Program-made: the position numbers and the translations under genes
In this document: positions 26,925 to 50,190 of the stretch, one piece after another
Layout: each line of letters starts with the position of its first letter
Numbering within the stretch: position 1 is the first letter of the stretch
Notes under the pieces: model-generated
Database searches by the model: none
Told to the model about the DNA's origin: nothing
Seen by the model: only the letters and a program-made list of their open reading frames with translations
NCBI GenBank assembly: GCA_963556145.1
Contig: OY744468.1
Span: 1,116,001 to 1,180,000 of the forward strand
Length of the DNA stretch: 64,000 nt
Direction of reading: 5' to 3'
From: Hygrocybe punicea
Lineage: Eukaryota > Basidiomycota > Agaricomycetes > Agaricales > Hygrophoraceae

Positions 26925-27420
26925 GGACCATGACTAGGAGGTCGATGGGGATGGCAGATGGGAGATCAGGAAGGTAGGGGACCAACAGGACCAAAAGGTA
27001 AGCTCGCTCATACTTTGTACAGGCGAACGATGGCGGAGACCAGAGGCAGACAAGGCGGACAATGAAGGCGGAAGAGATCGATGGGATTAAGGGGTTGATG
27101 GGGATGGCAGATGGGTGATCACGAAGGTAGGGGACCAGGAGGACCAAAAGGTAAGCTCGCTCGTACTTTGTACGGGCGAACGATGGCAGAGACCAGATGC
27201 GATGGGAGTGACCTGAACCAGTACCATGAGGGAACCAGGAAGGGGACCAGGTAGGCGACCACGAGGAAGACCAAAGGTAAGCTTGCTAGTACTATGTACG
27301 GGCGAATGAGGGGACCTAGGAAGGGTAGTTGCTTGCTGGTACTTTGTACTGGCGAACGTTGAAGAAAAAAACACGACTAAGTCAGAAAACAATACGACTA
27401 AACTGACGCGTCAACAGGGA
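26925..27420. repeat. Tandem-like repeat with GTACTTTGTAC palindromes
   Basis: Units of roughly 100-160 bases repeat the string GGTAAGCTCGCTCGTACTTTG and its variants, followed by GGCGAACGATGG and GACCAGGAGGACC. At least four GTAC-AT-rich-GTAC palindromes are visible. The reverse complement of most of this block is present at 34500-34874. Confidence 0.75.
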
Positions 27421-27925
27421 CAAACATCCCAGCTCTTCACAACTGAGTCGTCAAAGAGCTCTCATCCAGTTCTCAATGGCTGAGCCGTAGAGAACTTACC
27501 TGGCACCCGCCCATCTCCTCACCATCGTTGTGTCGTACCTGGTGCTCCCATCTCCTCATCGGCACTCTCAGCAGCCGAGCCATAGAGAACTTATCTGGCA
27601 CTCCTGTCTCCTCATCAGCCTCTCAACAGCCATGCCGCGCTGCGTTTCCGTCAGTTCAGCTTAATCACGCCCTTTTCAATTTCATGACCATGACCGTCCT
27701 GCGGAATACATTATTCCACCACACTATGTACAGTATTATTCGACCACATTATGTACAGTATTATTCGACCATCAGTTCCCTCCATACAAATTTCATCCTT
27801 GCTGGTTTCAGCATGCGTATAATATACTTGTCTGTCTGCCGGACAAGCCAGTTCTCATTGTAAAAGCAAGCGGGTAGCTCACAAACGGGATCACGAACAC
27901 TGACAGTGTTCCTACCATCCCTTAT
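27050..27925 (-). repeat. Left arm of a large inverted repeat
   Basis: The reverse complement matches 33706-34874 with small differences and one block of extra palindromic units in the right arm. The arm covers the last codons of the minus-strand gene at 27761-30074, a CATTATGTACAGTATTATTCGAC repeat near 27730-27770, palindromic repeats and the GTAC repeats. Confidence 0.85.
27455..27650 (-). repeat. Palindromic repeat cluster inside the left arm
   Basis: Three units of the AGTTCTC...GGCTGAGCC...GAGAACTTACCTGGC type described at 16313-16760. Confidence 0.75.
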
Positions 27926-30074
27926 CCTGCGACACGGTTTAGCACCCCTGTGGGATTGCGTTCTTGCAATCCTTTGGTACTCGTCATCAATGATCTTCAT
28001 CTTGAGGTCCATGTTGCGTCGCCAATGCATGGTCATTGGGCGATACGCAATCTCGAGTTCGTCATTGTCGGCGGCGCTGTCTTCTGAACTCATCCCGTCT
28101 TCTCCCAAATTTTCCATCACTGACTTTAACCACTCCCAATTGTCGACATCTGGTGCCTCCTCCTGTTCTTTGCAACTGATGGTCTCCTTTATGATAGTTA
28201 GCCGACGATTGAATTTCTGGGGGTGATTGTTTAGCTTGTTTTTTGTTGAAGATTTCCGCAGACGCACCGCAACACGTCGTTCTCTCCTCCTAGCAAACTT
28301 CAACTGCTTATCCTTGTGTGCGATTATTCAATCTTCCACTTGTGCTGGAGTTTCCAGTGTATCCGTATCTGTCAGTTTTGGCTGACCGAGCCTCCAGGTG
28401 GCCCTCACCCGCTTGTATCTACCTTGCAGAATGTTGTGAAAGTAGGCCATTGACCTTTCCGGCAACCGAAGTCCTGATTTCCTACAAGCTTTTCTCATCT
28501 TCTTCACCAAGATGTCCAAGATGGCAGCGTTCCATTCGCTGTTGGGACCAGCCCTCATGTCGAAATGGAGGTCCTTCAAATCAGGCTCTGCTCTTCCTTC
28601 CTTGTGCGCGTGAACAATTGCAGGGGTCACAGACCTTTGTCCCATAAAGTCATCATCGTCATCGTCGCCATCGACTTTGAAAACTTCCTTGAAAACTTGG
28701 CGGGATATATCCTGTTCAGAGGTCCATCAATCAATAGCGCAGAATGCGACACACATGCACTCACCAAAAAAATTGACCGGATTTCAGCGGTCTCCGCCTC
28801 CTTTATCGCCAGGACATCCTGATCAACGTTCGATTTTCGTCCTCGGCGCCTGGTAGTCTGTTTCGGTGGCCCGCAGGCAGCTTGCTGCAGTATTAATCGC
28901 AGCATGTCGAGGGCTTCTTCTCCTGTATGCTTCTGTCATCTAGACGCCTTTGACCTATGGGGATACTTTCCTTTGCCCATTGTGTGTCCATTATCCTCAC
29001 TCGATTCACCTTCTGTTTCCTCACTAGTTGAAGACGCAGTAGTATCCGACTTGGCGTTGCTCTCGCTTCCTGTGTCTGACGATTCGAGTCCATTGTCTAG
29101 CATGCCATAAACTTTCTTGCATCGACAGGCAAATATCCAGCCGACGCACCTGTTCACGATTTCTTAGCACAGGAGTCCCTGAGCGGTTCTTGTGTTTTGA
29201 TCGCAGTTCTGCCATAAATTTGCTGGTGGATGGAGTTGCTGCTCTGGATTTCGGTTTCTTGCTCACGTATGCTGGTCCCTTCAGTGTTTTCTTTGATCCA
29301 CTTGCCTCTGGTGGATCACAGACGGGTTGCTGCATCTTGTTGGACCATCGGGCTTCCATAGCTGCGATTTCTTGCTCTTTCTCAGCCTGAGGGGTGTCAT
29401 TCTAAATATGATGACTTATCACAATAATACACACCAGCGAGCGTCTCAACATCATGTCAACTTCTTTCTGGTGCGCTTCCTCCCTTGCTTGGACTCTCGC
29501 ATTCAACTCCATCATAAGAGCTTCAAATCGTATTTCATATTCGTGGCGAGTTGGTTCTTCCTTTTCTTGCACAAATTTCTCTAATTCCTTCAATCTCGTC
29601 TCCAGTTTTGCCTCCATGTGTTGGACAGTGGTTTGATTCTTTAAACGAGTGAGTAAATTACACTTAGGACTTGTCAGGGATGAACCTTCTGTCTCAGTTT
29701 CCAGATTCTATACTGAGAGAACTCTAGCTGCTCTCAGAGATACTTCTCATCACGTGAGTATCTATCATCCTGTTTTTCCACGATTTGACGTTTATGCTGA
29801 ATGCTATGATTAGTTTTGATGCTCCTTGAGATATTTGCCGCCAACGTACAGGACTGACAGTCTGATCATTCATCCGTACCAGCGTGAAGTCGTTGTCGTT
29901 CATCTCCTCATCCTCGTCATCAAAGCAGTCTTCTACTCCCAGGACCGGAGCATTTGTTGTCACCGAAACGTCCATCTCCACACCTGAAGCAGCCAGCGCT
30001 TCTTGACCAGAGGGAACTGAGTGAGGATAGAAAGATGTGCCATGAAGTTCTCCTGGACTCAGTCCATGAGACAT
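27761..30074 (-). pseudogene. Mushroom-restricted repeated family gene (GMSSEDSA type), two nonsense codons
   Basis: Likely start ATG 30074 (MSHGLSPGELHGTSF). Exon-like blocks follow through short introns: an acidic segment (DCFDDEDEEMNDNDF), a coiled-coil (29617-29420, KELEKFVQEKEE), a Ser/Thr-rich linker with KSRAATPSTSKF, LQQAACGPPKQTTRRRGR, then FDMRAGPNSEWNAAILDILVK, GRYKRVRATW, GEDGMSSEDSA and CELPACFYNENWL to the stop at 27761. TGA codons interrupt the frame after HRSKASR (about 28936) and after TPAQVED (about 28325). The last exon resembles 12309-12809. Function unknown; the C-terminal part is copied into the right inverted arm (33706-33868). Confidence 0.6.
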
Positions 30075-33705: not shown

Positions 33706-34874
33706 GATAAGGGATGGTAGGAATACCGTCAGTGTTCACGATCCCATTTGTGAGCTACCCACTTGCTTTTACAATGAGAACTGGCTCGTCCAGCAGACAG
33801 ACAAGTATATTATACGCGTGCTGAAACCAGCAAGGATGAAATTTGTATGGAGGGAACTGATGGTCAAATAATACTGTACATAATGTGGTCGAATAATACT
33901 GTACATAGTGTGGTGGAATAATGTATTCCGCAGGACAGAAATGGTCATGAAATTGAAAAGGGCGCGATTAAGCTGAACTGACGGAAACGCGGCGCGGCAC
34001 AGCTGTTGAGAGGCCGATGAGGAGACAGGAGTGCCAGATAAGTTCTCTATGGCTCAGCTGCTGAGAGTGCCGATGAGGAGATGGGAGCGCCAGGACAGTG
34101 GAACCGAAGTGCTGCCATTAAGGTCGAGATGGAAGCACCAGGTAAGCTCTCTACGGCTCAGCCATGGAGAGGTGACGATGAAGAAGGAGGGGTGCCAGGT
34201 GGGGTATTGAGCGAGTGCCTGCCAATGAGGAAATGGGAGCGCCGGGTAGACAAGGTGCCAGGTAAGTTCTCTGCAGCTCAGCCGTTGAGAGGGCGACGAT
34301 GAGGAGTCCACGATGGTGAGGAGACGGGAGCGCCCAGAGTTCTCTACGGCTCAGCCGCTGAGAGTGCCGATAATGAGATGGGAGCACCAGGTACGACACG
34401 ACAATGGTGAGGAGATGGGCAGGTGCCAGGTAAGTTCTCTATGGCTCAGCCATTGAGAACTGGATGAGAGCTCTTTGACGACTCAGTTGTGAAGAGCTGG
34501 GATGTTTGTCCCTGTTGACGTGTCAGTTTAGTCGTATTGTTTTCTGACTTAGTCGTGTTTTTTTCTTCAACGTTCGCCAGTACAAAGTACCAGCGAGCAA
34601 CTACCCTTCCTAGGTCCCCTCATTCGCCCGTACATAGTACTAGCAAGCTTACCTTTGGTCTTCCTCGTGGTCGCCTACCTGGTCCCCTTCCTGGTTCCCT
34701 CATGGTACTGGTTCAGGTCACTCCCATTGCATCTGGTCTCTGCCATCATTCGCCCGTACAAAGTACGAGTGAGCTTACCTTTTGGTCCTCCTGGTCCCCT
34801 ACCTTCGTGATTACCCATCTGCCATCCCCATCGACCCCTTAATCCCATCGATCTCTTCCGCCTTCATTGTCCGC
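33706..34874 (+). repeat. Right arm of the large inverted repeat
   Basis: Inverted copy of 27050-27925, enlarged by additional palindromic units (about 34080-34390). It begins just after the WD40 stop codon and contains a 55-codon copy of the tail of the minus-strand gene at 27761-30074, ending at about 33868. The arm is cut at 34874 by the LTR element and its last bases resume at 50079. Confidence 0.85.
33985..34490 (+). repeat. Palindromic repeat cluster inside the right arm
   Basis: Six or more units of CCAGGTAAGTTCTCTAYGGC plus CAGCCGYTGAGAG, alternating with GATGAGGAGAYGGGAGYGCC. Confidence 0.8.
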
Positions 34875-36281
34875 TGTCATGACCCCAAGTGTTTTTGGGT
34901 GTAATGTCATGGGTTTACCATCGGACCACGGACTTAGATATTTAAGTGCAACACTATGGATGCACACCTACACTCATTAGTACCCATTCTATGCCTTTCC
35001 ACATTACGCATGCTAGTGAACAGACACAAATAGCATATATGCTTACCTTTATATCATTTATTATGGCTTCACTAGTAATGCCCAGACCTAGCCGTTTATG
35101 TATGGTGCACAGAGGCACATCCCCCACTCATTAGTATTTATTATATATTTCTCTGTATTGCGCGTGCAAGGAGACAAGCCCAACTAGCATTGTTACCTAT
35201 ATTAGCAGTAATGGATTGATTACAAATCTTGTTTACTTGTATTGATCAAAAGCGGCTCAGCTAGATAATGGGAAATGTTTAGATAAGATGTGAACAAGAG
35301 GATGATAAGATAATGATAAGATAGGATGCATCAGAGAGTGATTGTGATATTCTGCTTACATAAAGACAATGGTCTATTGTTCTGAGCAGTCTATTGTTCT
35401 AAACAGTCCAAATGGAGATAGAGCCCATTGTTCACAGCCTCTTTGATGCCATCCATTGTTCTCATGACCCAGTCCTATTGTTCTCACTTTCCCATTGTTC
35501 TCAGTCCCCCATTGTTCTCCAACAGTATAAATAGGGCCCCCAAATTCCAGTAGTCAGTAGGATTTCCCCCCTCACCACTCAGTAGTCACTCTCAGTTGGG
35601 TTCACACAGTGTGATCCCTCATTCTCTTAGTACTAGTAGTTACTCATTGTAGTAGCTAGTGCTTGCAATCCAGTCTAGTTCACTCTTATTCTATCATTCC
35701 CTGAGTTCCCCTTGTCATCAAGGAGAATTCACCCAGTTCACTCAGTTCAATCAATTCATTAGTCAGCATTAGTCAGCTAGATACATTTCTAAGGTTAAGG
35801 TTTCATCCTAAATAGATACACTTCTAAGGTTAAGGTTTCATCCTAAACAAAAACAGAGTATTCAAAAGGTATTAAAGATATCCCTGAACTAGTAGCCAAT
35901 GTGTGTTTGAAGCTTTGGATTTAAATCAGATATTATAATACCCAGAGATACTCTTGATTGAATAGGCCCTGTAGCCAAAACTGTCCATATTCAACTGGTG
36001 AATATTGTTATCAGTATTCATTAGTTCATATTTTTATATTCCAGTAGTGAATATTAGTATTTTCAGTACATCACACACCCAATTGCTATTCATACCTACT
36101 CAAAGTCTCAATTCTTAATTGAAGAGACCTCACTATTACATTCTATTGATTCATATAGTACATATACCCACAAACCCCTTCCTGATAGGTTATTTAGATA
36201 TTAAAAACCCACGAACAACAAGAAGGTACCTGAACAAAGTCAACTCTGGTAATTCTTGGTGAAACAAACATTCACATAACA
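34875..36281 (+). repeat. 5' LTR of LTR element 1
   Basis: 1407 bp, TG...CA ends. It has seven ATTGTT motifs, a TATAAATA box at 35526-35533 and a 35-base internal tandem duplication (TCTAAGGTTAAGGTTTCATC at about 35788 and 35822). Confidence 0.93.
35376..35533 (+). promoter_or_regulatory. LTR promoter: seven ATTGTTCTC motifs before a TATA box
   Basis: ATTGTT occurs at 35376, 35393, 35427, 35455, 35477, 35494 and 35511, most followed by CTC or CT. TATAAATA follows at 35526. ATTGTT (AACAAT on the other strand) is the core recognised by HMG-box factors of the Sox/MATA type. Activation of the element by such a factor is an inference. Confidence 0.55.
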
Positions 36282-36285
36282 AAAT

Positions 36286-36303
36286 TGGAGCCCACCGCGA
36301 GGG
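36286..36303 (+). other. Primer-binding site of LTR element 1
   Basis: TGGAGCCCACCGCGAGGG begins four bases after the LTR end and is complementary to a CCA-ended 3' terminus, as expected for tRNA priming. The tRNA is not identified. The nested element carries the same first 17 bases. Confidence 0.8.
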
Positions 36304-36348
36304 TTTTAAATCCAAATAACCCAAGTATTTCTATACCTCTAATACACA

Positions 36349-39300
36349 ATGTCCACAAGCACCAGTACTCGTACCCCAGACATGATGCCCCTGCTAGGGC
36401 AGAAGTCTGCCCCAGCTAAATTCAAAGGAAGCTATGAAGAAGTCAAGAGATTCTTAAGGCATTACAATCAAATGTGCAAATCCTATGCTGTTTCTGATAA
36501 AGAAAAGTGTGAAAGGATTGTAGATTACTGCTCTACCAAAGTAGTCAAGCTCATTGAAGCCCTGGAGAGTTACATATCCCAGGACTGGAATACTCTTGAG
36601 AAAGATATTACTCGCTACTTTGATGCTGCCCTAAAGGAAACAAGATACATTGTTAGAGATCTCATGACCCTTGCACGCATTTGGAAACTTAAGCAGATCA
36701 GAACTCTCACCAAATGGAAGCAATATGAACGCAGGTTCATTACTATTGCAGGATGGTTAGAGAGCAAGAAGAAGATCTCTGCAGATGAAAAGGCTGCATA
36801 CTTCTGGCATGGAATCAACAAGAACCTCAGACATATCATTGAGACACGTCTCAACACTGGATCAACACCTTTAGATGTCACATCTCCATTCCCTATGAAA
36901 GATGTCATTAAGGTTGCAGAAACTCTATTTGAAAGGAATCGGTTTGACATGAACCTAGCAGATTCAGATTCAGATATACCAGGAAGACTAGACAACTCTG
37001 TTTCAGAAGACTCTGATACAGATGATTCATCAGAGTATGATACAGATAGTGACTATGAAGCCTGCATCAAGAGAAAGAAAGCTAGCAAGAAGAAGAAGGC
37101 ATTCAAATCCAAGGCATATGATTCAGATGATGAACTATTTAAGAAGACAGTAAGGAAAGAAGCTGAGAAGAAAGATAATGGCAGGAAGGGGACAGACAAG
37201 AAGTCTACCTCCACATCATCATCACACCAGAATGAAGTAGAGTCTTTAATCAAACAAATGGGAAAGCTTTCTTTGGATGATATTAAGTATGGACTAGCAT
37301 ACTATAGAGCCTTGAAGCTAGACCCAGACATTGCTCACTGTATTAGCCCACCTGAGTTGAAACAACCTCAGCAAAAGCAAGCACTGTCACAGCAAACACA
37401 AAGACCTCCCTTCAAAATCTCAGCTGCCAATAGTGTTGGCCTTCCACCAAACCCTTCTACTAGTTCGTTTACTCCTACCAATTCATTTACTCCTTCCAAT
37501 GAACAAAGAGGACCCATGACCTGCTATGGTTGTGGAGGACATGGACATGGAATGCAAACATGTTTCCAAATAAATGAATTACTCAAGACAGGCAAGATAA
37601 CCAAGGATGGTCTTGGAAGGATTGTTTATCCAGATGGCTCAATAATTCGCAGAAATATGGGTGAGACATTTGTACAAGCAATTGATAGACATGTAGCTGA
37701 GAAGGCCAGCAATGTCCAATCACACTTCTATGTATTACAAGATCAATTCTCTGATTACTATCAATCTGATGCTGAAGAAGATTTTGAAGCATATACTATA
37801 CCTACAATCAAGGAAGAAGAAATACAAATCCTGCCTGCAGTCAGAGAACCACAGAAAATTGGTGCAGCAAGGAAGGAAGTATTAGATGGAGTATATCCTC
37901 CCACAGGTATTAAAGCCAAAGGAAAAGAGAATATAAGGCCCAATACAGTACTGCCACCCATTCCTAAAGGCCCAGTCAAACCCGGCCCTCTTTCAGCACA
38001 GAAGCAAGCTCAAGCACATATACCAGCACCATTACCCTTTGCTCTCAAGAAGACAAACCCATTCCATCCTACAGAAGAACTGCATGCAAAGCAACCTGTT
38101 CCAATGGATATAAGAACCCCAATACATATTCCTTCAGACACAGATTCAGATGTAGAAATGATAGATACTTCTCCAGCAAAGCCAGCAAAGACTCATATAC
38201 AAGGACACAAGGCACACATAGATAAGAACAAGATTATGGCTGAGAGACATGATGCTATAACTCGTCCAAAGCCTACACCTAGACAATCTGAAATTTCAGT
38301 CAATATTGGAGAAACTCAAGTTGTCAATCAAATCCTTGACACACCAGTCACCATGCATGTTCGTGAAGTATTAACCTCTTCCAAGGAGCTATCTGAGCAA
38401 TTAACAGACATGATCAAGAGAAAAAATGCAAAAGTATCTGCCATTGCAAGCTCATTTGCAACCAAGGATCGTGGAGTGTTAATCAAGCTTCAGATGAAAT
38501 GTGATAAGAGACCTATTGAAGCCATCATTGACACTGGATCTCAACTAAATGTGATTAGTAAAAGAGTCTGGAAAGAAATTATTCAAAGACCTATGGATGT
38601 AGGAAAAATTCTCACAATGAATGATGCTAATGGAGGTGAAGGAACATTAAAAGGATTAGTTTCAGAAGTCCCATTGACTTGTGGTGGTGTTCTCACCTAT
38701 GCCAATCTTTACATAGGAGAGACAGTGCCATTCGATTTATTACTTGGAAGACCATGGCAAAGAGGCAACTATGTTTCTATTGATGAAAGAATAGATGGCA
38801 CATATTTAGTATTCAAGAATCCTGAAGATTTGACAAACAGATTTGAACTAATGGTCACACCAAACCATTCTGGAGTTCATCACATCAAAGGAGCTACTAC
38901 TGCTCATACCTCAGTCTCCTATGCATGTACCACCTTCATTGAGCCAGAAGATACATCTATAATTGCTCCAACACCAGGACATTCACTCACAGACCATGTT
39001 AACATTTCTTCCTTCACAATTGATAACCATCCTCTTCCTCTCCATGTGAAAGAGATGTATACTCAAGATCATCCTGCTACACAAAGTAATGTCACTGCTA
39101 TGCTGGAAGATAACATTCTTGCTACTTCTGGATTTATTTGTTCTCCTCAGACTGAACATGATAAAGTTCCTTTGGAAGATCCTCCTGTTGAAGTTTATAT
39201 TCCACCTTCACCTGTTGAATTATACCACATTTCAGTTGATCAGAAGGTTAACTTGGATACATCTGAACCATTATCTAATGTTTCAAATCAATCACCTGCT

Positions 39301-40806
39301 ACCTCTAGCATAGAAAGCATTTTGTTTCCAGATACTACCTATCCAGATACTCCCCCCTCTTCTCCTTCAGTTAGCAGCAATAGTTCTTTGTTCTCAGCTT
39401 TGAGTTCTTCAACATCTTCTTTTAATTTATCATATGATGATTTTGAACACTTACATACTACATTCATGAATGATGAATTTTTGCTGGACCCAAACTGTGG
39501 TGGTTATAAATGTATACATATAAATGAACACTTGGATAGTCACCCTACTTATTCAGACATTAGGGTTGATGAACATAATCCTTCACCAGTTTGTCCTACC
39601 ATTTCTATTCAGCAAAATGAATCTAAAGTGATAATGTCTGAGAGTTCACTTTTACACCACCAACAATTACAAGATTCTGGATTTATAGTAGAACCTATCA
39701 ATGCATCGTCCCATACAGAAATCAGCTCTTTATCAAATGAAGCAGATTCAGATGATGAATTAGAGTGGTCTGCATATATAAATCCCAACAATCCATCTCC
39801 AGATGATATTGCATCATTAATTTCATTTCTCAGCAATACCATTGAGGAAGTCCAGCCACCATCTATTGATCAAGTTTCGGATTCACCTCCAGGACTTATA
39901 TCACTTTCACCCACGCCACCCTCACTTGAACATATGCCTTTATTACACTTGGACCCTGTCCCAGACAGTACATATACTCCACCAGAGAGAGAACACATTT
40001 TGCCTGTACTTGTTGCTAAAGACTCCAGATCACCATCAAGTATCAAATCAGAACACTTATATCCTAAATCAAATTCACACACTCAATGTCCTATCCCCAT
40101 GCAATCACCCATTCAAGTATTTTGTATTACTGCTTCACATTCTGGCCCGTCTCAGCAGGACCTAGCCACCACCAGAATTCTCACCACTGAACCAGACCAT
40201 GTGTCCACATATGATGTCCTCATTCACTCCCTCAAGGCTTTTGGAGGAGCATTGATGGAAGGTGTTCACAAACTTTCCTGCAAGTTAGCTATGCCTGACT
40301 GGAGGACCTTCATCAATGGCAAACCTCCAAATGATTCAATTTGTCATCACTCCAATCATAAATGCTCCCTATTCCAGTTTCTAGAGGAAGAAATTTCTGA
40401 TGGTTTACCTGAACCAGAACCAGAGCATTTCAGGACTCATCACCCAACAGATTCAAAGCCTCTCCTTCATGAAGAAGGAATCCAGTCTCCTAAAAGCTCA
40501 TCTATCATTTTTCACTCAAATCATCATCTCTCACTGTCAGATGCCATTAACACCATACTTGATAAAGCAGCAGCTTTACTCAAGCAGGTTTATCTCAAAT
40601 CAAAGCTGCAATTTTATCAAATATTTCACAGAAGATTACAAAAACGTGATTATCAGCCAGGAGAATTAGTTCTAGTATATAATAGCCGTTTGGAGATGAC
40701 TAAAGGAAAATTCAAGACAGATCCTCGTTACCTTGGCCCATATGAGGTTGTTAGACAAACAAGAAGAGGAACTTATGTCTTAAAAGAATTAAATGGCACA
40801 GTGTAG
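36349..40806 (+). CDS. Gag-protease-integrase-tail polyprotein, truncated by the nested LTR element
   Basis: One 1485-aa frame from ATG 36349. Residues about 20-215 form a retrotransposon Gag-like helical domain (IVRDLMTLARIWKLKQI, EKAAYFWHGINKNLR). An acidic-basic linker and a CCHC knuckle CYGCGGHGHGMQTC at 392-405 follow. An aspartic protease has DTGS at 728-731 and LLLGRPWQRGNYV near 800. After about 600 residues of Ser/Pro-rich spacer the frame ends in an integrase C-terminal (GPY/F-type) block: RDYQPGELVLVYNSRLEMTK, YLGPYEVVRQT and GTYVLKELNG. Reverse transcriptase, RNase H and the integrase catalytic core are absent. The stop TAG (40804-40806) is supplied by the LTR of the nested insertion; the frame originally continued at 46226 into the ASCH-like region. 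Confidence 0.85.
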   Translation: MSTSTSTRTPDMMPLLGQKSAPAKFKGSYEEVKRFLRHYNQMCKSYAVSDKEKCERIVDYCSTKVVKLIEALESYISQDWNTLEKDITRYFDAALKETRYIVRDLMTLARIWKLKQIRTLTKWKQYERRFITIAGWLESKKKISADEKAAYFWHGINKNLRHIIETRLNTGSTPLDVTSPFPMKDVIKVAETLFERNRFDMNLADSDSDIPGRLDNSVSEDSDTDDSSEYDTDSDYEACIKRKKASKKKKAFKSKAYDSDDELFKKTVRKEAEKKDNGRKGTDKKSTSTSSSHQNEVESLIKQMGKLSLDDIKYGLAYYRALKLDPDIAHCISPPELKQPQQKQALSQQTQRPPFKISAANSVGLPPNPSTSSFTPTNSFTPSNEQRGPMTCYGCGGHGHGMQTCFQINELLKTGKITKDGLGRIVYPDGSIIRRNMGETFVQAIDRHVAEKASNVQSHFYVLQDQFSDYYQSDAEEDFEAYTIPTIKEEEIQILPAVREPQKIGAARKEVLDGVYPPTGIKAKGKENIRPNTVLPPIPKGPVKPGPLSAQKQAQAHIPAPLPFALKKTNPFHPTEELHAKQPVPMDIRTPIHIPSDTDSDVEMIDTSPAKPAKTHIQGHKAHIDKNKIMAERHDAITRPKPTPRQSEISVNIGETQVVNQILDTPVTMHVREVLTSSKELSEQLTDMIKRKNAKVSAIASSFATKDRGVLIKLQMKCDKRPIEAIIDTGSQLNVISKRVWKEIIQRPMDVGKILTMNDANGGEGTLKGLVSEVPLTCGGVLTYANLYIGETVPFDLLLGRPWQRGNYVSIDERIDGTYLVFKNPEDLTNRFELMVTPNHSGVHHIKGATTAHTSVSYACTTFIEPEDTSIIAPTPGHSLTDHVNISSFTIDNHPLPLHVKEMYTQDHPATQSNVTAMLEDNILATSGFICSPQTEHDKVPLEDPPVEVYIPPSPVELYHISVDQKVNLDTSEPLSNVSNQSPATSSIESILFPDTTYPDTPPSSPSVSSNSSLFSALSSSTSSFNLSYDDFEHLHTTFMNDEFLLDPNCGGYKCIHINEHLDSHPTYSDIRVDEHNPSPVCPTISIQQNESKVIMSESSLLHHQQLQDSGFIVEPINASSHTEISSLSNEADSDDELEWSAYINPNNPSPDDIASLISFLSNTIEEVQPPSIDQVSDSPPGLISLSPTPPSLEHMPLLHLDPVPDSTYTPPEREHILPVLVAKDSRSPSSIKSEHLYPKSNSHTQCPIPMQSPIQVFCITASHSGPSQQDLATTRILTTEPDHVSTYDVLIHSLKAFGGALMEGVHKLSCKLAMPDWRTFINGKPPNDSICHHSNHKCSLFQFLEEEISDGLPEPEPEHFRTHHPTDSKPLLHEEGIQSPKSSSIIFHSNHHLSLSDAINTILDKAAALLKQVYLKSKLQFYQIFHRRLQKRDYQPGELVLVYNSRLEMTKGKFKTDPRYLGPYEVVRQTRRGTYVLKELNGTV

Positions 40807-41708
40807 ATGCGGGTTCTTGGTGTGGCTTCGGAACTATATAAAGAAATAATATAAAGATCCTAACCTGTGGGTGTCAGCGTAGAAGTGACTGGATAAATCA
40901 GTGTCGGGAATTGAAGTAAAAAGAAGGGAATGTTAGTAAAAGTAAGCCGCCGCGTAAAACTGGACTAATAACGACGAAGCCGGCGATGAACGGAGTGAAA
41001 ACGGACAAATAATAAAGAACCCGACGATGCCGACGATGTCAGGTACGGCGGGTCGGGTCGGGTCGGGTCGGAAACGATGAACGAATATACGGAAACAACG
41101 ATGAAGACGACGAAGAGGACTATAAAAGCTAAGGGTCTACATGGACGAGCATTTGAAGGGATTAAAACAATTCTGACTATGAGGGAAACGGGGACTAAGG
41201 GTATCTTTTTTTGTACGGTCGTCGGGGACCGTTTTTATAGTACATGAGTGTGTAGCTACTTTCGGACATGTCTACTTCGGCCGATAGAAACTACAAAGAA
41301 ACACTGGAATGGGGAAGTGGAAAGGGGGGTTGCAAAGCAACGAAGACAGGAAATGGAGGGGAAAAACGAATATGCAAGGAAAAGATCTAGAAAGTCCTAC
41401 ATATCTCCGAAAGGACGATGGGATGCATAAATAAAGTAAATCCGAAGTCGGGGATTGAGTCCGAAGAGATCCATCTCCTGGAATTGGAACTCCGAGGCGT
41501 TTGAGGCTGCCGGATTTGGTCTGAGAGCGGCTGTGACGAAGCGGCATACGTCGGGTTATGTCGGTCACGTCGGGTCACGTCACGTCACGTCACGTCGGGT
41601 TGCGTCGGGTTACGTCGGGTTCGAATGCAAGTCGAATGGCGGCATCGGGTTGGTCCGGATTCGTGATATATCGATGATACGGACTCAGAGGGACGTCGAC
41701 CCTCTACA
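40802..41708 (-). repeat. LTR of element 2 (3' LTR in its own orientation)
   Basis: Contains a GGGTC pentamer run (41047-41070), an ACGTC run (41573-41600) and, on the minus strand, TATAAAAA at 41232-41239. Confidence 0.92.
41232..41239 (-). promoter_or_regulatory. TATA box in LTR of element 2
   Basis: TATAAAAACGGTCCCC on the minus strand. The same string with one change occurs in the LTR at the right window edge (63909). The second LTR copy has it at 45749-45756. Confidence 0.6.
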
Positions 41709-43889
41709 TCTCCAGGGTACTTTAAATAAAGACCATCCCTGGTCTATACTATGTGGACTCGGGACTCGGATGCGTGAGATGAGGCCGACGTGGTGGTCAT
41801 GGAATCGGGCTCGACGGGACGAGGCGGGTTGTGGACCATGCAAAGGGGGAGAGCGGATGGTGACTAGCGGAACTCGATGGACGGTCGGAGGCTGAGAGCG
41901 GCGAATGGGGAACAAAATGGGTGAAGCCGGTGTCGAGGAAAGGGAAACAAAATACATAGAACCGGGGAAAAGGGAACTGAGCGGAAATGAAAGAAGAGAT
42001 GGAAAGCTACAAAAACGGGACAAACGGGGAGTGGAAACGCAAAATAGATGAGAAAATAAATAAATGTTGGGTATCGGAAAGAGGGGACACGATAGAAATC
42101 AAGTCGGGATAAAACTAAACGTGAAATGGGATCGAGGGTGGGTGACAGAAATAACAAAGGCATGAGCGGAAACTCGTAGGGCATAAGCGGAAACAACATA
42201 AAGCGAAAGCGGATGACAAAAACGGTTGTAGTCGGGTCGGGTTAGGGTCGGCCGCTTCGGTGGCTGTGTCAACGGGTGGCGGAAACGGTGGCATCGGCTG
42301 TGGAAAGGCTTGGTGACATGGGCATAGAAATACGATGACGACGGTGAACATGATATGACGACGGCGGAGGTTCGATACGATGGCGGCGGAGGTTCGATAG
42401 ACGATGGCGGAGGTTCGATATGTCAATACTAATATGGGGGCGATAATCAACGGATGTGAAATCAGCCTCATACTAGGCGGTTCAGCACCGGCTTGGACCC
42501 GTGGGGAAGCATTCTCCCCCATGGAACTGAAATATAAAGTCGGGTGGGTCGGGAATCGAAGCCGAGACAGGGAACATTGTGTCTGGGTCGAAATGGTGGC
42601 GGAAACGGTGGGTCATGGAAAGCGGAGAGCGATGTCAACAGGTGGAATGCGGGTGCGTGAGCGGATGAGTCGGGTGCGTGGGGAATGGGTGAAGCGGTGC
42701 GTCGGGTTCGTAAGCGGGTGCGGCGGGTTCGTAAACGGGTTTGCTGAGTGCGACGGATTCATAAGCGGGTGTGTCGGGTACGTCGGGTGTATTATGCGGG
42801 TGTCGGGTGTGTCAGGAACAAGTGTATTTCTTTTTATCTTTCTTTTATCTTGACGTTTTTCTTTCTTTTTATTTATTTAATCTATCTATGTATATATTTC
42901 TTATGCCGATGGACGGTGACGGGTTTTCGTAGGGTCGGGTTCGGTGGGTATGGGGTGTGAAACCGGAACCGGAACCAGATGCTCGAATCGAGCACTGGTG
43001 CTCGAATTGAGCCGGAACCGGAACCGGATGCCGCGGAATCGTTGGGAACGAGTCCGGGTTCGTAGTCGGGTGCTGTGATGCAGGTCGCGGATCCGGATCC
43101 GGAACCCGGTGCAGCGGGTAGGTTGAAAACGGGTTGTCGGGTGTGGCGGTATGGCATAGGGCGACGTAGGGAGACGGGGGCGGACGACGTGAGCGGATAA
43201 GACGGAACGTGGTTGCGAGGCGTGGATCATGGTTGCGTGGGGTTGTTCGAAGCTGCGGGTTATCGAGGGAAGCGGGTAACGGGTGGTCGAGGTTGGCGGT
43301 ACGGGATAGGGCGATGTTGGGAAACGGAGGCGGATGACGTGGGCGGTTGAGACGACGTGGACTGGGTGATGGATTGGGGTGATACGGGTGGCGTTTTCGT
43401 GATACTTTCGTGGCGGATCGTGGGGATTTGACAAGGGTGCGTCGGGTCGTGGTACGGGTTTGGGCGGCCGGTGGTCACGGTTTCGCGGGCGTAACCCAAC
43501 GGGGGCTTTGTTTGGGCTCGCGAAGGGACTTGAGGGACGTCGTGGGGTTGGTCGAGGGCGTAGGTGGTCGAAGGGGAGTGGACGAGGACGGGGACGGCTG
43601 GGAAGTCGGGGTCGACGGGGAGTGACGTGGCAGCTTGCGTGGGACCACGAGGGACGGGGGCGGACGTGTTTGGGACAGTAGGGAGCCATGTCGAGGTGCG
43701 GAGGCGTGAACGTGGGTGTGGAAGGTGGTTGTACGCGGTGGTCGTTGGCGCTAGGTTGGCGAACGCGGCGGCACGAGGCGAGGTGGCATGATATGTCGTT
43801 GGGGGCTTGAACACAACGGGGACGGCTTGTACGGACTTGCGAGGGGCGATGTAGGATGCTGGGAACTGGTACGAGGCGGCGGTGGGTCC

Positions 43890-44640
43890 TACGAAGACGT
43901 GAGCGGCCGGGGACGTCGAGTAGGCGAGGGCACGACGTGGCGACGCGTGGGGCGTCGATAATGGCGAGGACGGCCTGTACTGGCTTTACGAACGACGGTG
44001 TGGGGCTCTGGGAGGCTGTACGAAGCGGCGGATGGTCCAACGAGGACGTGAGCGGCCGGGGATGTCGAGTACGGGGGCACGAGGAAGTATGACGTGGCAA
44101 CGCGTGAGGCATCGATGACGGCGAGAATGGCTCGTGAGGGCTCGCGAGTGGTGTCGTGGGGCTGTAGGAAGCGGTACGAGGCGACGGGGAGGTCCAACGA
44201 GGGCGTGGGCGGCCGGAGATGTCGACTTCGCGGGGGCTTGAGGTTGGTTGACGTGGCACGCGTGTGGGGCATTGATGACGGCGAAGACGACTCGTGAGAG
44301 CTCGCGAGGGGCGTTGTGGGGACTTGGGAACTAGTGCAAAGCGGAGGGTGGTCCAACGAGGACTTGAGCGGCCGGTGATGTCGAGTACGAGGAAGGATGA
44401 CGTGGCAACGCGTGAGGGGTCGATGACGGCGAGGACGGCTCGTGAGGGCTTGCGAAGGGCGATGTGGGACTCTGGGAAGCGGTGCGAGGTGACGGGGTGT
44501 CCATCGAGGGCGTGAGCGGCCGGAGATGACGACTAGGCGGGGGCACGAGGAGGGATGACGTGGCGACGCGTTGGGGGCTCGATAATGGCGAGGACGGCTC
44601 GTGAGGGCTCGGGACTGGTGTCGTGGGGCTATAGCACGGT
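43890..44640 (+). repeat. Tandem repeat of about 150 bp, five degenerate units
   Basis: The block GACGTGAGCGGCCGGGGATG recurs in variants at about 43898, 44047, 44195, 44358 and 44508, with GATGACGTGGCAACGCGTGA and TCGATGACGGCGAGGACGG in each unit. Confidence 0.8.
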
Positions 44641-45300
44641 GTTGAGGGCTCGAACGCGGCGGGGCTGCTCGTACGGACTCGTGGAGGGCGGTGACGTGGT
44701 TTGCTGGTAACTTCGCGGGCTCAGACGACGGGGGCATGTCAAGGCTTGTTTCCGGTGACAAGTGCGAGTTCGTAGAAGTAAACGGCTGGGTGTGCACAGG
44801 CTAAACCCGTTGCACGGCGCTCCGTCTGTTCCGAGTCGTCAGTGCTGTTGGGCGCGTCGTTGAGGCTTTCCGGTCGCGGTTCTTCGACGGGTATCGGTGG
44901 GGAGTGAGATTCCGAGCGTGTTGGGGGTCTATAAACGAGTGTGGATAGTGGATGTGACGGAGTTCGAGACTTCGAGTCGACAAACGAGGGTGTTGGATCG
45001 TGGCTGTGCAAGTTTCCTAAAGCGGAGGCGGCCGTTGGGTCGGCCGCACAAGAGCGGATTCGAAGTTGTACGTGGAACTAGACAGTTGCAGTCGTAAAAG
45101 AAGAGAGGATAGTAATAAAATCAAACCCTAATGATGGTGCGATAGTTGGAGATCAGATTGTCGAGGGATCGGATGTCGGATGTAAAGGGGTCGGTAACGG
45201 CACTAACGGGTGTCGGATGTGTAGAGTGCGGCGGCAGGGCTTGTTTCGAAATGACGAAAGGAAATATAGGGCGGAATGAATGTGTCTTGGCACTGAATTA

Positions 45301-45318
45301 TCCTCGCGGTGGGCTCCA
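45301..45318 (-). other. Primer-binding site of LTR element 2
   Basis: Read on the minus strand: LTR end CATCTACA, two bases, then TGGAGCCCACCGCGAGGA. The first 17 bases equal the site of element 1. Confidence 0.8.
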
Positions 45319-45320
45319 GA

Positions 45321-46225
45321 TGTAGATGCGGGTTCTGTGTGGCTTCGGAACTATATAAAGAAATAATATAAAGATCCTAACCTGTGGGTGTCAGCGTAGA
45401 AGTGACTGGATAAATCAGTGTCGGGAATTGAAGTAAAAAGAAGGGAATGTTAGTAAAAGTAAGCCGCCGCGTAAAACTGGACTAATAACGACGAAGCCGG
45501 CGATGAACGGAGTGAAAACGGACAAATAATAAAGAACCCGACGATGCCGACGATGTCAGGTACGGCGGGTCGGGTCGGGTCGGGTCGGAAACGATGAACG
45601 AATATACGGAAACAACGATGAAGACGACGAAGAGGACTATAAAAGCTAAGGGTCTACATGGACGAGCATTTGAAGGGATTAAAACAATTCTGACTATGAG
45701 GGAAACGGGGACTAAGGGTATCTTTTTTTGTACGGTCGTCGGGGACCGTTTTTATAGTACATGAGTGTGTAGCTACTTTCGGACATGTCTACTTCGGCCG
45801 ATAGAAACTACAAAGAAACACTGGAATGGGGAAGTGGAAAGGGGGGTTGCAAAGCAACGAAGACAGGAAATGGAGGGGAAAAACGAATATGCAAGGAAAA
45901 GATCTAGAAAGTCCTACATATCTCCGAAAGGACGATGGGATGCATAAATAAAGTAAATCCGAAGTCGGGGATTGAGTCCGAAGAGATCCATCTCCTGGAA
46001 TTGGAACTCCGAGGCGTTTGAGGCTGCCGGATTTGGTCTGAGAGCGGCTGTGACGAAGCGGCATACGTCGGGTTATGTCGGTCACGTCGGGTCACGTCAC
46101 GTCACGTCACGTCGGGTTGCGTCGGGTTACGTCGGGTTCGAATGCAAGTCGAATGGCGGCATCGGGTTGGTCCGGATTCGTGATATATCGATGATACGGA
46201 CTCAGAGGGACGTCGACCCTCTACA
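45321..46225 (-). repeat. LTR of element 2 (5' LTR in its own orientation)
   Basis: 905 bp, virtually identical to 40802-41708; carries the TATA box at 45749-45756. Confidence 0.92.
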
Positions 46226-46745
46226 ACAGTACATGCAGATCATTATTCACCTCTTCAAATGTTACCCTATCTATCTCATGTGGCTCCCACCCTCTATGGA
46301 ATGGTAGATAACAGAAACAGGAATTATTCAATCATTCCAGAAAATCCCACAGATATCATTCTTGCCATCAAGCCAGAATTTGCTGCACACATTGCATCAT
46401 GCACAAAGAATTTTGAATTTAGAAAATATCAAGTTCCAGCCACTGTCTGTCACATGTGGCTTTATGAAACAATGCCAGTCAGTTCCATTACAGGCGTCAT
46501 TACAGTTGGTTCAGTAAAAATACCAGGAGAAGTCAATGACCCCTCTTGGCAATGATGACTTTGATGCAGGTTTAAAGTTGTCAAAATATGGTTATCCTAT
46601 ATATCATCTTCATCAGTTACCAGTGCCACTATCTGCAGATTTACTCCAGAAAAGATACAATACCATTATTCCTCACCGCTATTGTATAGCCCCACACTCA
46701 TTCATTCAAGATTTTCCTTTTTCTGCATTGATTCCAATATTCTAG
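46226..46745 (+). pseudogene. ASCH-like domain, C-terminal end of the element 1 polyprotein
   Basis: This continues the polyprotein frame across the nested insertion: PYLSHVAPTLYGMVDN, then IILAIKPEFAAHIASCTKNF, EFRKYQVPATVCHMWLYETM and ITVGSVKIPGEV. The order Ile-Lys-Pro, a helix, Lys-x-x-Glu-x-Arg-Lys, then Val-x-x-x-Trp-x-Tyr and Pro-Val is typical of ASCH domains of the PUA-like fold, which bind RNA. The frame stops at 46553-46555, but a one-base shift at about 46540 lets the domain continue (GNDDFDAGLKLSKYGYPIYH) to about 46700. Either the domain is newly frameshifted or the tail is a separate exon. Its being fused after an integrase tail is unusual. Confidence 0.55.
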
Positions 46746-48011
46746 CACCTTTGGTGACTGAATATTCAGTTATATCCAAGACCCCTATCCCTCATGTGAT
46801 TTCCCGTTGCACACCCTCTTTTTCTATGCCCCATGCATTTTTATTGGCCGCTATTTTTACCTATGCACGTGATTTCCCGTCACGCACCCTTTTTTTTATG
46901 CTATCTAAACTAATTAGATAAATTTCATTTGTTTTATGATTTGCTGGTCATTTTTTTTTAAGTCAGACACGCAAAGAAAATATATATAATGCTACAAAGT
47001 GATAATACAACCCCTCTCATCTAATAGTTGACGGACCCATTATATGAATACAATGATAATATATATAAAAGACATAACGAAACATAACGAAACATAACGA
47101 AACGAAACGAAATGAAATGAAATGACAAGACATAATGAAATAGAAAATAGACCAAAGGGAGATACAACTGGTGTATGAATAGAAAGATAAAGAAATGGAC
47201 GAACAACCGGTGACCCTCCACTCCCAGTAGTCCAGCAACTGAGTCCCGCCCGAAAAATATAGCGCTCGCCCCGGTTGAAATGGAGTGATGCTCGGCATCA
47301 CTCCTGGCCCGTCCATCCTCCAGACGAATCCGTTGTCGATCGATTGTAAATGTACGGTAGTACGGAATGGCTAGTATAAGCCGTTTTCTACATGCAAATA
47401 CTTCAGTACAGGCAAATAATGAATATAAAAATGAAGTGTTACTTAGCGGGTTTTTTCTTGAAGGGAGGATGGAGTGACCATTCATAGCGTCGGATAGAAT
47501 TTTTTTTACGATTTATTGCATAGTGGCATAGCAAGAAAAAGGAGTGGAGCACTACAGAACCATAGTGGCAGACTAGAGGAAAGAAAAGACGGATCGTGCA
47601 AATGTACAGCTATGACCCTGGAAAACACGTGACCGGCACATGTTTTCTCATGTGACCTGAGTAAACGGTCTAGACCGAATAAGCATTGGTACTATTGCAG
47701 ATCTGTACCCGATACAGCTTCAAGACCCTGAAGAACCAAGGGAATGGTAAAATCCCGATTTGATCGATCATACAACCTTAAATCGAATTTGAAATACATC
47801 ATCCCAATATAGCAAGGCCAGGGCTAGTTTAGTTCTGGACCCACAGGGACCTATTGTGACACAGCGTCCCACATTAGTATTGCTTGACCCACCATTCCGG
47901 TTCCCCCACAAATATTTTCCCTTAACGTCTCCTGTTACATCAACTGCACCGCTGTTCCGCTCAGCGCTTCAGCACTACCAGACACCCACATACCGTAATC
48001 CATATCATACT
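46746..48011. other. Non-coding spacer inside LTR element 1
   Basis: AT-rich, with T-runs at 46890 and 46952. ATTTCCCGTTGCACACCC and a near copy lie about 70 bases apart (46800 and 46870). A minus-strand frame (47021-47485, 154 aa) begins like ordinary protein but ends in codons made from the minisatellite, and I do not support it as a gene. Confidence 0.5.
47073..47140 (+). repeat. AACGAAACAT / GAAAT minisatellite
   Basis: Three ACATAACGAA units run into ACGAA and then ATGAA pentamers. Confidence 0.85.
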
Positions 48012-48584
48012 ATGACATCATACTCCAGTCCTTCACCTTCTCCATCTATGGATATTCCTCTACGCCGTCTCGATTTATCATGCTTATTCGATACTCCCAC
48101 CGAATACGATACGGACTTCTTTACCAAACCAACTAGTCCTGCTCAGACACCACCGCTACCCCCTTCGGAATCTGACGAATACATCGATTTCGAATCTGTG
48201 AACGTACGAGGTGTTGACTGTCCGCCGCCGGACGATTTCGACTTTTTCATGGATAGTCTTCCCAACTTTCCTATGCCACCCACCACTGTCCCTTCGCAAT
48301 CCATACCCTTAGACCCGGAGTTTAGAGAATGGCTCGAATCACCTCCTTCATTTTCCACAAATCGTAATCACCCAACTTCCTCTCGCCGCAATCGTTTCGA
48401 ACGCCCTGCAATTCCGGCATTACTTCCTAAGCCGCTACAAAAGAAGCGCACTCGCCCTAAGTACCACCTCAAGGCGCTATTAAATGCTACGAAGAAGAAC
48501 ATGGATCGGTTAAAGGCAGAAGGAGTTGATGTACAAGATTGGGAGGAATTCTTTGGAAAGATGAAGAAGAAGTTAAAAGAATAG
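48012..48584 (+). CDS. Accessory ORF of unknown function before the 3' LTR
   Basis: Open frame of 190 codons from ATG 48012 to TAG 48582-48584; the frame stays open upstream without an ATG. It is rich in Ser and Pro at the start (SYSSPSPSPSMD), acidic with Phe/Asp pairs in the middle (DDFDFFMDSLPNF), and Lys/Arg-rich at the end (KKRTRPKYHLKALL, FFGKMKKKLKE). An acidic-Pro-rich then basic layout would suit a nucleic-acid or chromatin-binding protein, but I recognise no family. It lies on the element's coding strand, 1.3 kb after the ASCH-like region, so it is either element-encoded or captured. No defect is visible. Confidence 0.5.
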   Translation: MTSYSSPSPSPSMDIPLRRLDLSCLFDTPTEYDTDFFTKPTSPAQTPPLPPSESDEYIDFESVNVRGVDCPPPDDFDFFMDSLPNFPMPPTTVPSQSIPLDPEFREWLESPPSFSTNRNHPTSSRRNRFERPAIPALLPKPLQKKRTRPKYHLKALLNATKKNMDRLKAEGVDVQDWEEFFGKMKKKLKE

Positions 48585-48671
48585 TAATAATGTAAAAGCT
48601 TCTTCTCAGATTAAAAAGTTGTTTTCTTTTGGTTTCAACTGGGGACAGTTGATTTAATTGTGTTGTGCGGA

Positions 48672-50078
48672 TGTCATGACCCCAAGTGTTTTTGGGTGTA
48701 ATGTCATGGGTTTACCATCGGACCACGGACTTAGATATTTAAGTGCAACACTATGGATGCACACCTACACTCATTAGTACCCATTCTATGCCTTTCCACA
48801 TTACGCATGCTAGTGAACAGACACAAATAGCATATATGCTTACCTTTATATCATTTATTATGGCTTCACTAGTAATGCCCAGACCTAGCCGTTTATGTAT
48901 GGTGCACAGAGGCACATCCCCCACTCATTAGTATTTATTATATATTTCTCTGTATTGCGCGTGCAAGGAGACAAGCCCAACTAGCATTGTTACCTATATT
49001 AGCAGTAATGGATTGATTACAAATCTTGTTTACTTGTATTGATCAAAAGCGGCTCAGCTAGATAATGGGAAATGTTTAGATAAGATGTGAACAAGAGGAT
49101 GATAAGATAATGATAAGATAGGATGCATCAGAGAGTGATTGTGATATTCTGCTTACATAAAGACAATGGTCTATTGTTCTGAGCAGTCTATTGTTCTAAA
49201 CAGTCCAAATGGAGATAGAGCCCATTGTTCACAGCCTCTTTGATGCCATCCATTGTTCTCATGACCCAGTCCTATTGTTCTCACTTTCCCATTGTTCTCA
49301 GTCCCCCATTGTTCTCCAACAGTATAAATAGGGCCCCCAAATTCCAGTAGTCAGTAGGATTTCCCCCCTCACCACTCAGTAGTCACTCTCAGTTGGGTTC
49401 ACACAGTGTGATCCCTCATTCTCTTAGTACTAGTAGTTACTCATTGTAGTAGCTAGTGCTTGCAATCCAGTCTAGTTCACTCTTATTCTATCATTCCCTG
49501 AGTTCCCCTTGTCATCAAGGAGAATTCACCCAGTTCACTCAGTTCAATCAATTCATTAGTCAGCATTAGTCAGCTAGATACATTTCTAAGGTTAAGGTTT
49601 CATCCTAAATAGATACACTTCTAAGGTTAAGGTTTCATCCTAAACAAAAACAGAGTATTCAAAAGGTATTAAAGATATCCCTGAACTAGTAGCCAATGTG
49701 TGTTTGAAGCTTTGGATTTAAATCAGATATTATAATACCCAGAGATACTCTTGATTGAATAGGCCCTGTAGCCAAAACTGTCCATATTCAACTGGTGAAT
49801 ATTGTTATCAGTATTCATTAGTTCATATTTTTATATTCCAGTAGTGAATATTAGTATTTTCAGTACATCACACACCCAATTGCTATTCATACCTACTCAA
49901 AGTCTCAATTCTTAATTGAAGAGACCTCACTATTACATTCTATTGATTCATATAGTACATATACCCACAAACCCCTTCCTGATAGGTTATTTAGATATTA
50001 AAAACCCACGAACAACAAGAAGGTACCTGAATAAAGTCAACTCCGGTAATTCTTGGTGAAACAAACATTCACATAACA
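48672..50078 (+). repeat. 3' LTR of LTR element 1
   Basis: 1407 bp, aligned base for base with 34875-36281 apart from two substitutions seen near the 3' end; TATA box at 49323-49330 with the same seven ATTGTT motifs before it. Confidence 0.93.
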
Positions 50079-50190
50079 CCGCCTTGTCCGCCTTGTCCGC
50101 CTTCCCCTCCCCCGTTTGCTTGGCCCGTAAAGAGGTCAGTAGTTTTTCTGGCCGTACTGCAAGACTCCATCTAACTCACAAGCTTTCCAG

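Follow-up and report, generated by a model that had tools for sequence, protein, structure and literature searches.

A Ty3/gypsy element of Hygrocybe punicea without reverse transcriptase that joins Gag-protease to an integrase tail, and its probable complete partner with a near-identical LTR

In a stretch of 64,000 nt from a Hygrocybe punicea genome of 92 Mb (hereafter the window) we found an LTR retrotransposon, element A, in which one frame joins Gag, protease and a spacer directly to the C-terminal tail of an integrase. We consider it quite probable that this element is a semi-autonomous, coding Ty3/gypsy parasite lacking reverse transcriptase (RT), which is moved by a complete partner with a near-identical LTR. 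The same fused structure is present in three insertions, two of which keep the frame open, the LTR and the primer-binding site (PBS) are shared with the partner, and the identity to the partner along the element is mosaic. We use the term semi-autonomous because the element has Gag and protease without RT and integrase core and because its PBS and LTR termini are those of an autonomous family. The suggestion of the earlier note, that a protein-coding parasite of Ty3/gypsy elements lacking RT is present here, was thus supported in part: further insertions with the same fusion and a complete partner exist, whereas the borders of the element differ from those given.

Element A and its fused frame

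Element A spans positions 34875–50078 of the window and its two LTRs differ at 2 of 1407 bases (Table 1). The near identity of the LTRs had been noticed before, although the true LTRs of A lie outside the region 36349..46745 to which the earlier note referred. Among the best 40 of 528 candidates scored, 38 further places match the LTR with 98–99% over at least 1374 of the 1407 bases, and a pattern count gave 197 exact LTR starts of this family genome-wide. In ORF3, which A and the partner have in common, 11 synonymous and 6 nonsynonymous differences separate the two (S 183, N 600). The window also contains inverted copies, 94.9–96% identical, at 27055–27926 and 33706–34874, the latter adjoining the left end of A. 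Viral contigs, Rfam and ARAGORN gave no match.

Table 1. Features of element A and of the element nested in it (positions in the window)
Feature	Position	Strand	Evidence or remark
Left target site duplication (TSD), CCGC	34871..34874	.	Sequence identical to 50079-50082
5' LTR, TG..CA, 1407 bp	34875..36281	+	blastn, 99.86% to 48672-50078
Putative PBS, TGGAGCCCACCGCGAGG	36286..36302	+	Directly after LTR; identical sequence 3' of partner 5' LTRs
Gag, CCHC knuckle, DUF4100, protease, spacer and integrase tail, fused	36349..40801	+	Frame up to nested insertion
CCHC zinc knuckle, CYGCGGHGHGMQTC	37522..37563	+	Sequence
Aspartic protease	38491..38757	+	Pfam Asp_protease_2 E 2.5e-4, gag-asp_proteas E 1.1e-3, both below curated cut-off
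Spacer, 527 aa, 26% Ser+Pro	38968..40548	+	Sequence
Integrase C-terminal tail (GPY/F, SH3_Tf2-1), first part	40559..40801	+	Pfam E 0.0049, below cut-off
LTR element B, nested	40802..46225	-	LTRs 40802-41708 and 45321-46225; TSD ACAG
Remainder of fused frame: end of integrase tail and ASCH-like domain (from 46352)	46226..46742	+	Frameshifted in window copy
ORF3, 263 codons	47793..48584	+	Common to A and partner; without Pfam match
3' LTR of A	48672..50078	+	blastn
Right TSD, CCGC	50079..50082	.	Sequence

The fused frame is open from 36349 to 40806, i.e. over 1485 codons, a length with a chance probability of about 1e-41 at its own base composition. All Pfam families reported for it score below the curated cut-offs, including DUF4100 between the knuckle and the protease. 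The DTGS motif of the protease begins at 38530 (motif 38530–38559), and the GPY-type SH3_Tf2-1 tail corresponds to residues 1438–1479. That the N-terminal part is a Gag is suggested by its place, by the knuckle and by its relatives; protein relatives of the fused frame occur in Rhodofomes, Postia, Pleurotus, Mycena and others. Pfam reported no RT, RNase H or integrase core in the fused frame of the window, which agrees with the earlier reading, as does the succession of Gag, knuckle, protease, spacer and GPY/F block in one frame; only the spacer is shorter than the 600 residues first assigned to it. Compared with the spacers of partner ORF1, the spacer of A has about 36–41% amino acid identity in residues 78–344 and 56–59% in residues 342–527.

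The stop of this open frame is not its natural end, since the stop codon at 40804–40806 belongs to the nested element B, whose LTRs (907 and 905 bp) show no mismatch and 2 gap positions. Past B the frame resumes at 46226 and runs, frameshifted in the window copy, into the ASCH-like domain. The earlier note mistook the border of the nested element for the protein's end and overlooked both B and this domain. With a stop supplied by B and a frameshift beyond it, the window copy is unable to make the whole product. Element B has the same PBS sequence as A (on the minus strand) and a different LTR, its TSD is without CG, and it contains internal repeats with a spacing of about 150 bp; its longest listed frame, the one scanned, gave no Pfam match.

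Fused copies, the complete partner and target sites

Using positions 39900–40800 across the fusion as query, we obtained a match over the whole query in 3 of 40 scored places (from 141 candidates), namely in the window, at C2:7558635 and at C40:2207243, while the remaining 37 match the integrase tail only, with 88–91%. The search for further copies with the same fusion, which the earlier note had proposed, thus yielded two. A search with the spacer protein gave three full-length matches, whose frames comprise 1487, 1659 and 1668 codons, and in addition a decayed fragment on C41. Element B is absent from the C2 and C40 copies, and their frames, of 1659 and 1668 codons from stop to stop, pass through the fusion into the ASCH-like domain without a break, the base-by-base reading being confined to parts other than Gag. 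Each of these copies has two LTRs, with the TSDs GCAC (C2) and GCGG (C40), and the LTR pairs are 99.2% identical in C2 and 100% in C40 (1406/1406), compared with 99.86% in A. The three fused copies contain none of the RT matches listed, for which the best 150 of 670 candidates were scored. At C40:519366-520382 the first 133 spacer residues are of the fused type (97%) and the C-terminus is of the partner type (59%), and a partner RT with 99% follows about 1 kb downstream; judged from these sequences, this mosaic is probably a recombinant. To call the parasite 'successful' is generous: three full fused copies plus fragments do exist, but the amplification is modest.

A complete partner with the same LTR and PBS, as the earlier note had anticipated, was found, and it shares the tail and the CG-centred targets as well. 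In the copy at C41:4003891-4018944 the two LTRs are identical to each other; ORF1 (1995 codons) encodes Gag, DUF4100, protease and spacer, and ORF2, in the +1 frame and overlapping ORF1 by about 365 nt, has Pfam matches to RVT_1, RNase H, Integrase_H2C2 and, weakly, SH3_Tf2-1 and ends in the ASCH-like domain. ORF3 is also present. For the rve core, Pfam gave no match in the C41 copy and one below the cut-off in its database relative P0121. With LTRs, PBS, TSD and the pol order RT–RNase H–integrase, the partner is a Ty3/gypsy element. With the best 150 of 670 candidates scored, a count by eye gave 52 RT matches that reach 92% identity or more along most of the query; 22 of these lie in frames of 1491 codons. 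In the same way we counted 25 spacer matches in frames of 1993–1996 codons.

We also considered whether an RT-less architecture is typical of the whole protein family. The four RT-less relatives scanned (1778–2376 aa) look like ORF1 of two-ORF elements, a reading that follows from the layout of the genome's own partner, and we rejected this possibility. One of 120 listed relatives (197 found), P0005, matches the integrase tail. Another short candidate element with this LTR, L071 (C8:934535-943822; region G000:C8:934400-943950), was likewise rejected: its two LTRs agree in their flanking sequence on either side, and we therefore take them for solo LTRs that belong to a tandem duplication and enclose a chromovirus.

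In a comparison at 34 loci, 36 of 38 outer flanks of the LTR family have CG as the central two of their 4 bp; the other two flanks are both sides of the fused C2 copy (GCAC). Furthermore, CGN precedes 120 of the 149 LTR starts that were not recognized as 3' LTRs (197 exact starts minus 48); the CG frequency of the window is 4.2%. Two of the three fused copies show the CG-centred preference, which insertion by the partner's integrase would lead one to expect. Unequal flanks (CCGC, CCGA) were seen in one element on C39. In the oppositely oriented copies C3:504071-530381 and C3:531377-546287 (G000) the TSDs GCGG and CCGA occur in a crossed arrangement, such as would be left if the two copies had recombined and so inverted the DNA.

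Mosaic identity, selection and competing explanations

The identity between A and the C41 partner copy changes markedly along the element. It amounts to 99.3% in the LTR, 97.6% in the Gag part (36349–38400), 91.6% at 38401–38967, 88.7% in the DNA of the tail (compared with partner ORF2) and 95.2% at 46348–48671, while the spacer shows no match or 69% (58–63% with laxer scoring), its C-terminal part having a dS of about 1.1 from that of the partner. The fusion joint sits at a short stretch common to ORF1 and ORF2. On the basis of these comparisons, the fused lineage may be old with renewed ends, or its spacer may come from a divergent sister. Among the scored matches for the tail and the ASCH-like domain, the fused C2 and C40 copies come nearest to one another (93%), compared with 82–83% and 85–87% for partner copies. 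The LTRs of fused copies, in a comparison of 31 LTR loci, are 98.9–99.3% identical to some partner LTR, versus 98.4–98.65% to that of another fused copy. LTRs nearer to the partner combined with tail and ASCH-like domain nearer to another fused copy is the pattern that template switching in mixed particles would give.

We then compared the fused copies in pairs. Between C2 and C40, 2919 coding bases contain 95 substitutions and no indel, and 791 aligned non-coding bases downstream contain 144 substitutions and 14 indels (Fisher p 0.0013 for the contrast). The corresponding values are 73 substitutions and no indel in 2403 coding bases, and 133 and 12 in 692 non-coding bases, for A and C40, and 15 and none in 2403, and 15 and 3 in 947, for A and C2; these counts leave the frameshift of A beyond the insert outside the coding part, and the non-coding part is partly of low complexity, which inflates the indels. 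The nonsynonymous share between C2 and C40 is 49 of 95 in the whole frame (neutral 0.78, p 2e-8), 10 of 29 in the integrase tail (p 6e-7) and 11 of 23 in the part beyond the insert (p 0.002), and in the spacer, with 25 of 37 (p 0.10), it does not fall significantly below neutral; a second spacer value, p 0.16, is likewise not significant. By branch, the tail and ASCH-like domain have 23 synonymous and 18 nonsynonymous changes in C40 and 8 and 0 in C2 (3 ambiguous), and the C-terminal part of the spacer has 5 and 13 in C40 and 2 and 9 in C2 (3 ambiguous). The tail differences between A and C40 cluster in 40633–40779, where the C40 tract is at most 86% identical to any partner tail compared; this tract may come from an unsampled donor, so that the low dN/dS would perhaps be that of another lineage. 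The ASCH part of C2 is near that of the partner (3 synonymous and 8 nonsynonymous differences). For these two reasons constraint may have come partly via autonomous donors, and recombination with the partner confounds the low nonsynonymous share in tail and ASCH-like domain. Selection on this part is therefore suggested, not proven. For the purifying selection that the earlier note had wanted assessed across the fusion, the outcome is divided: the frame is kept between C2 and C40 and the share is low in tail and ASCH-like domain, whereas the spacer gives no significant signal and the window copy is frameshifted.

These data bear on a rather unlikely alternative, in which the element is a purely cis-acting passenger whose LTRs, PBS and packaging signal suffice and whose fused protein is an incidental leftover that is still open. 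It would fit the youth of the copies (LTR pairs 99.2–100%), the spacer without significant purifying selection, the broken window copy and the few differences between A and C2, which are little informative on selection. However, between C2 and C40 the coding bases are free of indels and stops next to non-coding sequence with 14 indels, and the whole-frame nonsynonymous share lies below neutral, a signal that recombination with the partner could also have imported. That the fusion is a one-time deletion in one copy which was dead from the start might be considered in view of the 37 scored related places without the fusion and the disruption of the window copy, and the earlier note had named a full pol gene in all other copies as the finding that would establish it. 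Instead, three insertions with different TSDs, both LTRs each and the same junction carry the fusion; it is thus not a one-off deletion, an explanation which we rejected and to which we give very little probability, and the element multiplied after the loss of RT. The different TSDs also argue against DNA duplication as the origin of the three loci. Host domestication of a Gag-derived gene could account for the long open frame kept in two copies, yet the element is multi-copy and flanked by LTRs and TSDs, and the LTR of each copy tracks the partner, so that we regard domestication as scarcely credible.

The semi-autonomous parasite remains our preferred reading. Against it stand, besides the spacer result and the tail tract described above, that only three full copies exist, that the window copy is broken twice, and that one TSD (GCAC) is without a CG centre. 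The LTR ages of fused and partner copies are alike (100% identity within the pairs of the fused C40 copy and of the C41 partner), and the target is of the CG type in two of the three fused copies. In the proposed course of events a two-ORF ancestor, with Gag-protease-spacer in ORF1 and RT-RNase H-integrase-ASCH in ORF2, would have lost the whole segment that separated the end of ORF1 from the integrase tail, which left both parts in one frame. The fused element would be transcribed from an LTR near-identical to that of the partner and would produce a Gag-protease polyprotein of its own, to which the integrase tail and the ASCH-like domain are attached; the partner's RT would copy it from the same PBS, the partner's integrase, preferring NCGN sites, would insert it, and template switching in mixed particles would keep renewing its ends from the partner. 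Transcription, co-packaging, the supply of protein and any role of the tail we infer from this arrangement.

Tail and ASCH-like domain lie in a single Gag-level frame in the fused copies and in the overlapping ORF2, in the +1 frame, in the partner. They might be kept because they act in trans, tethering the partner's integrase or cDNA to the parasite's particles or steering integration, with the ASCH-like domain reading CpG, possibly modified, and with two gypsy lineages of this genome having adopted it as the end of their Pol. We regard this as a doubtful extension of the preferred reading, and the reading of CpG as a guess; if true, Gag itself would carry a targeting module.

Relation to known systems and the ASCH-like domain

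RT-less coding elements of this kind are known from wheat. According to the part of the source available (PMC9744471), RLG_Sabrina_SA, which has Gag plus protease, and RLG_WHAM, paired with RLG_Wilma, are 'semi-autonomous' gypsy elements with Gag and without RT and integrase; their mobilization is proposed to depend on an autonomous family whose PBS and LTR termini resemble theirs, and the families share hardly any sequence homology with each other. In contrast, the fungal element is 99.3% (LTR) and 97.6% (Gag part) identical to its partner, and adds an integrase tail and an ASCH-like domain to Gag-protease; it is rare. A second pair, at wheat centromeres, is RLG_Quinta with RLG_Cereba, for which the accessible portion of PMC11302176 describes an element lacking RT and integrase, with Gag and an extra domain (DUF1), PBS and LTR termini identical to those of RLG_Cereba, and a proposed recombination by template switching. 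The extra domain of Quinta is given there as one of unknown function, whereas that of the fungal element is the recognizable C-terminus of the partner's Pol. As a gypsy element without RT that has Gag and shares PBS and LTR ends with a partner, the fungal element belongs, as far as these portions of the sources go, to the Sabrina_SA and Quinta kind.

The database protein P0005 (tag lgn) appears to have its parts in the same succession, with a Gag-like region, DUF4100, protease and integrase tail (44%) and no RT; it differs in its joint and in giving no significant ASCH-like match. Chromoviruses likewise carry an extra module after the GPY/F block, their integrase having a C-terminal chromodomain, whereas partner and fused element have the ASCH-like domain at this place and Pfam reports no chromodomain in partner ORF2. 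TR-GAG elements are LTR elements with a gag domain only; unlike these, the fused element has protease, integrase tail and ASCH-like domain besides Gag. No fungal semi-autonomous element with this fusion was found in the literature, judged by titles and the beginnings of abstracts; the same kind of search gave nothing on DUF4100, and its matches for ASCH domain and retrotransposon look unrelated by their listing. Within the searches made, the fusion of Gag-protease with integrase tail and ASCH-like domain in a fungus appears to be new. Compared with the wheat parasites, the fungal pair offers near-identical ends in a much smaller genome and thus a simpler system for asking whether the proteins of a parasite help or hurt its partner. 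The retained tail and ASCH-like domain make it testable why part of an integrase is kept without its core, and the CG-centred target sites are a measurable readout of targeting.

For the ASCH-like domain, PF04266 scores 13.2–14.5 bits in partner and fused copies, below the Pfam cut-off of 21.2, and Pfam reported no ASCH match in P0121 or in the pieces of P0002 and of L076, a chromovirus Pol of this genome; a sequence search of PDB with the ASCH part of P0002 gave no match. With a model of moderate confidence (pLDDT 63.5), the first eight Foldseek rows are Z. mobilis ASCH structures, and YTH domains appear lower among the rows. The domain stands at the end of the database Pol P0121 (65%), inside the ORF1 protein P0002 and, with 40%, after the chromodomain of L076. 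The protein P0122 (811 aa), without Pfam match, gave a weak further ASCH-like match. Many further matches are about 36–42% identical to the domain, one of which was read. Two gypsy lineages of this genome thus have a Pol that ends in an ASCH-like domain (PUA superfamily), at L069:3580-4017 (-) and L076:115-546 (-).
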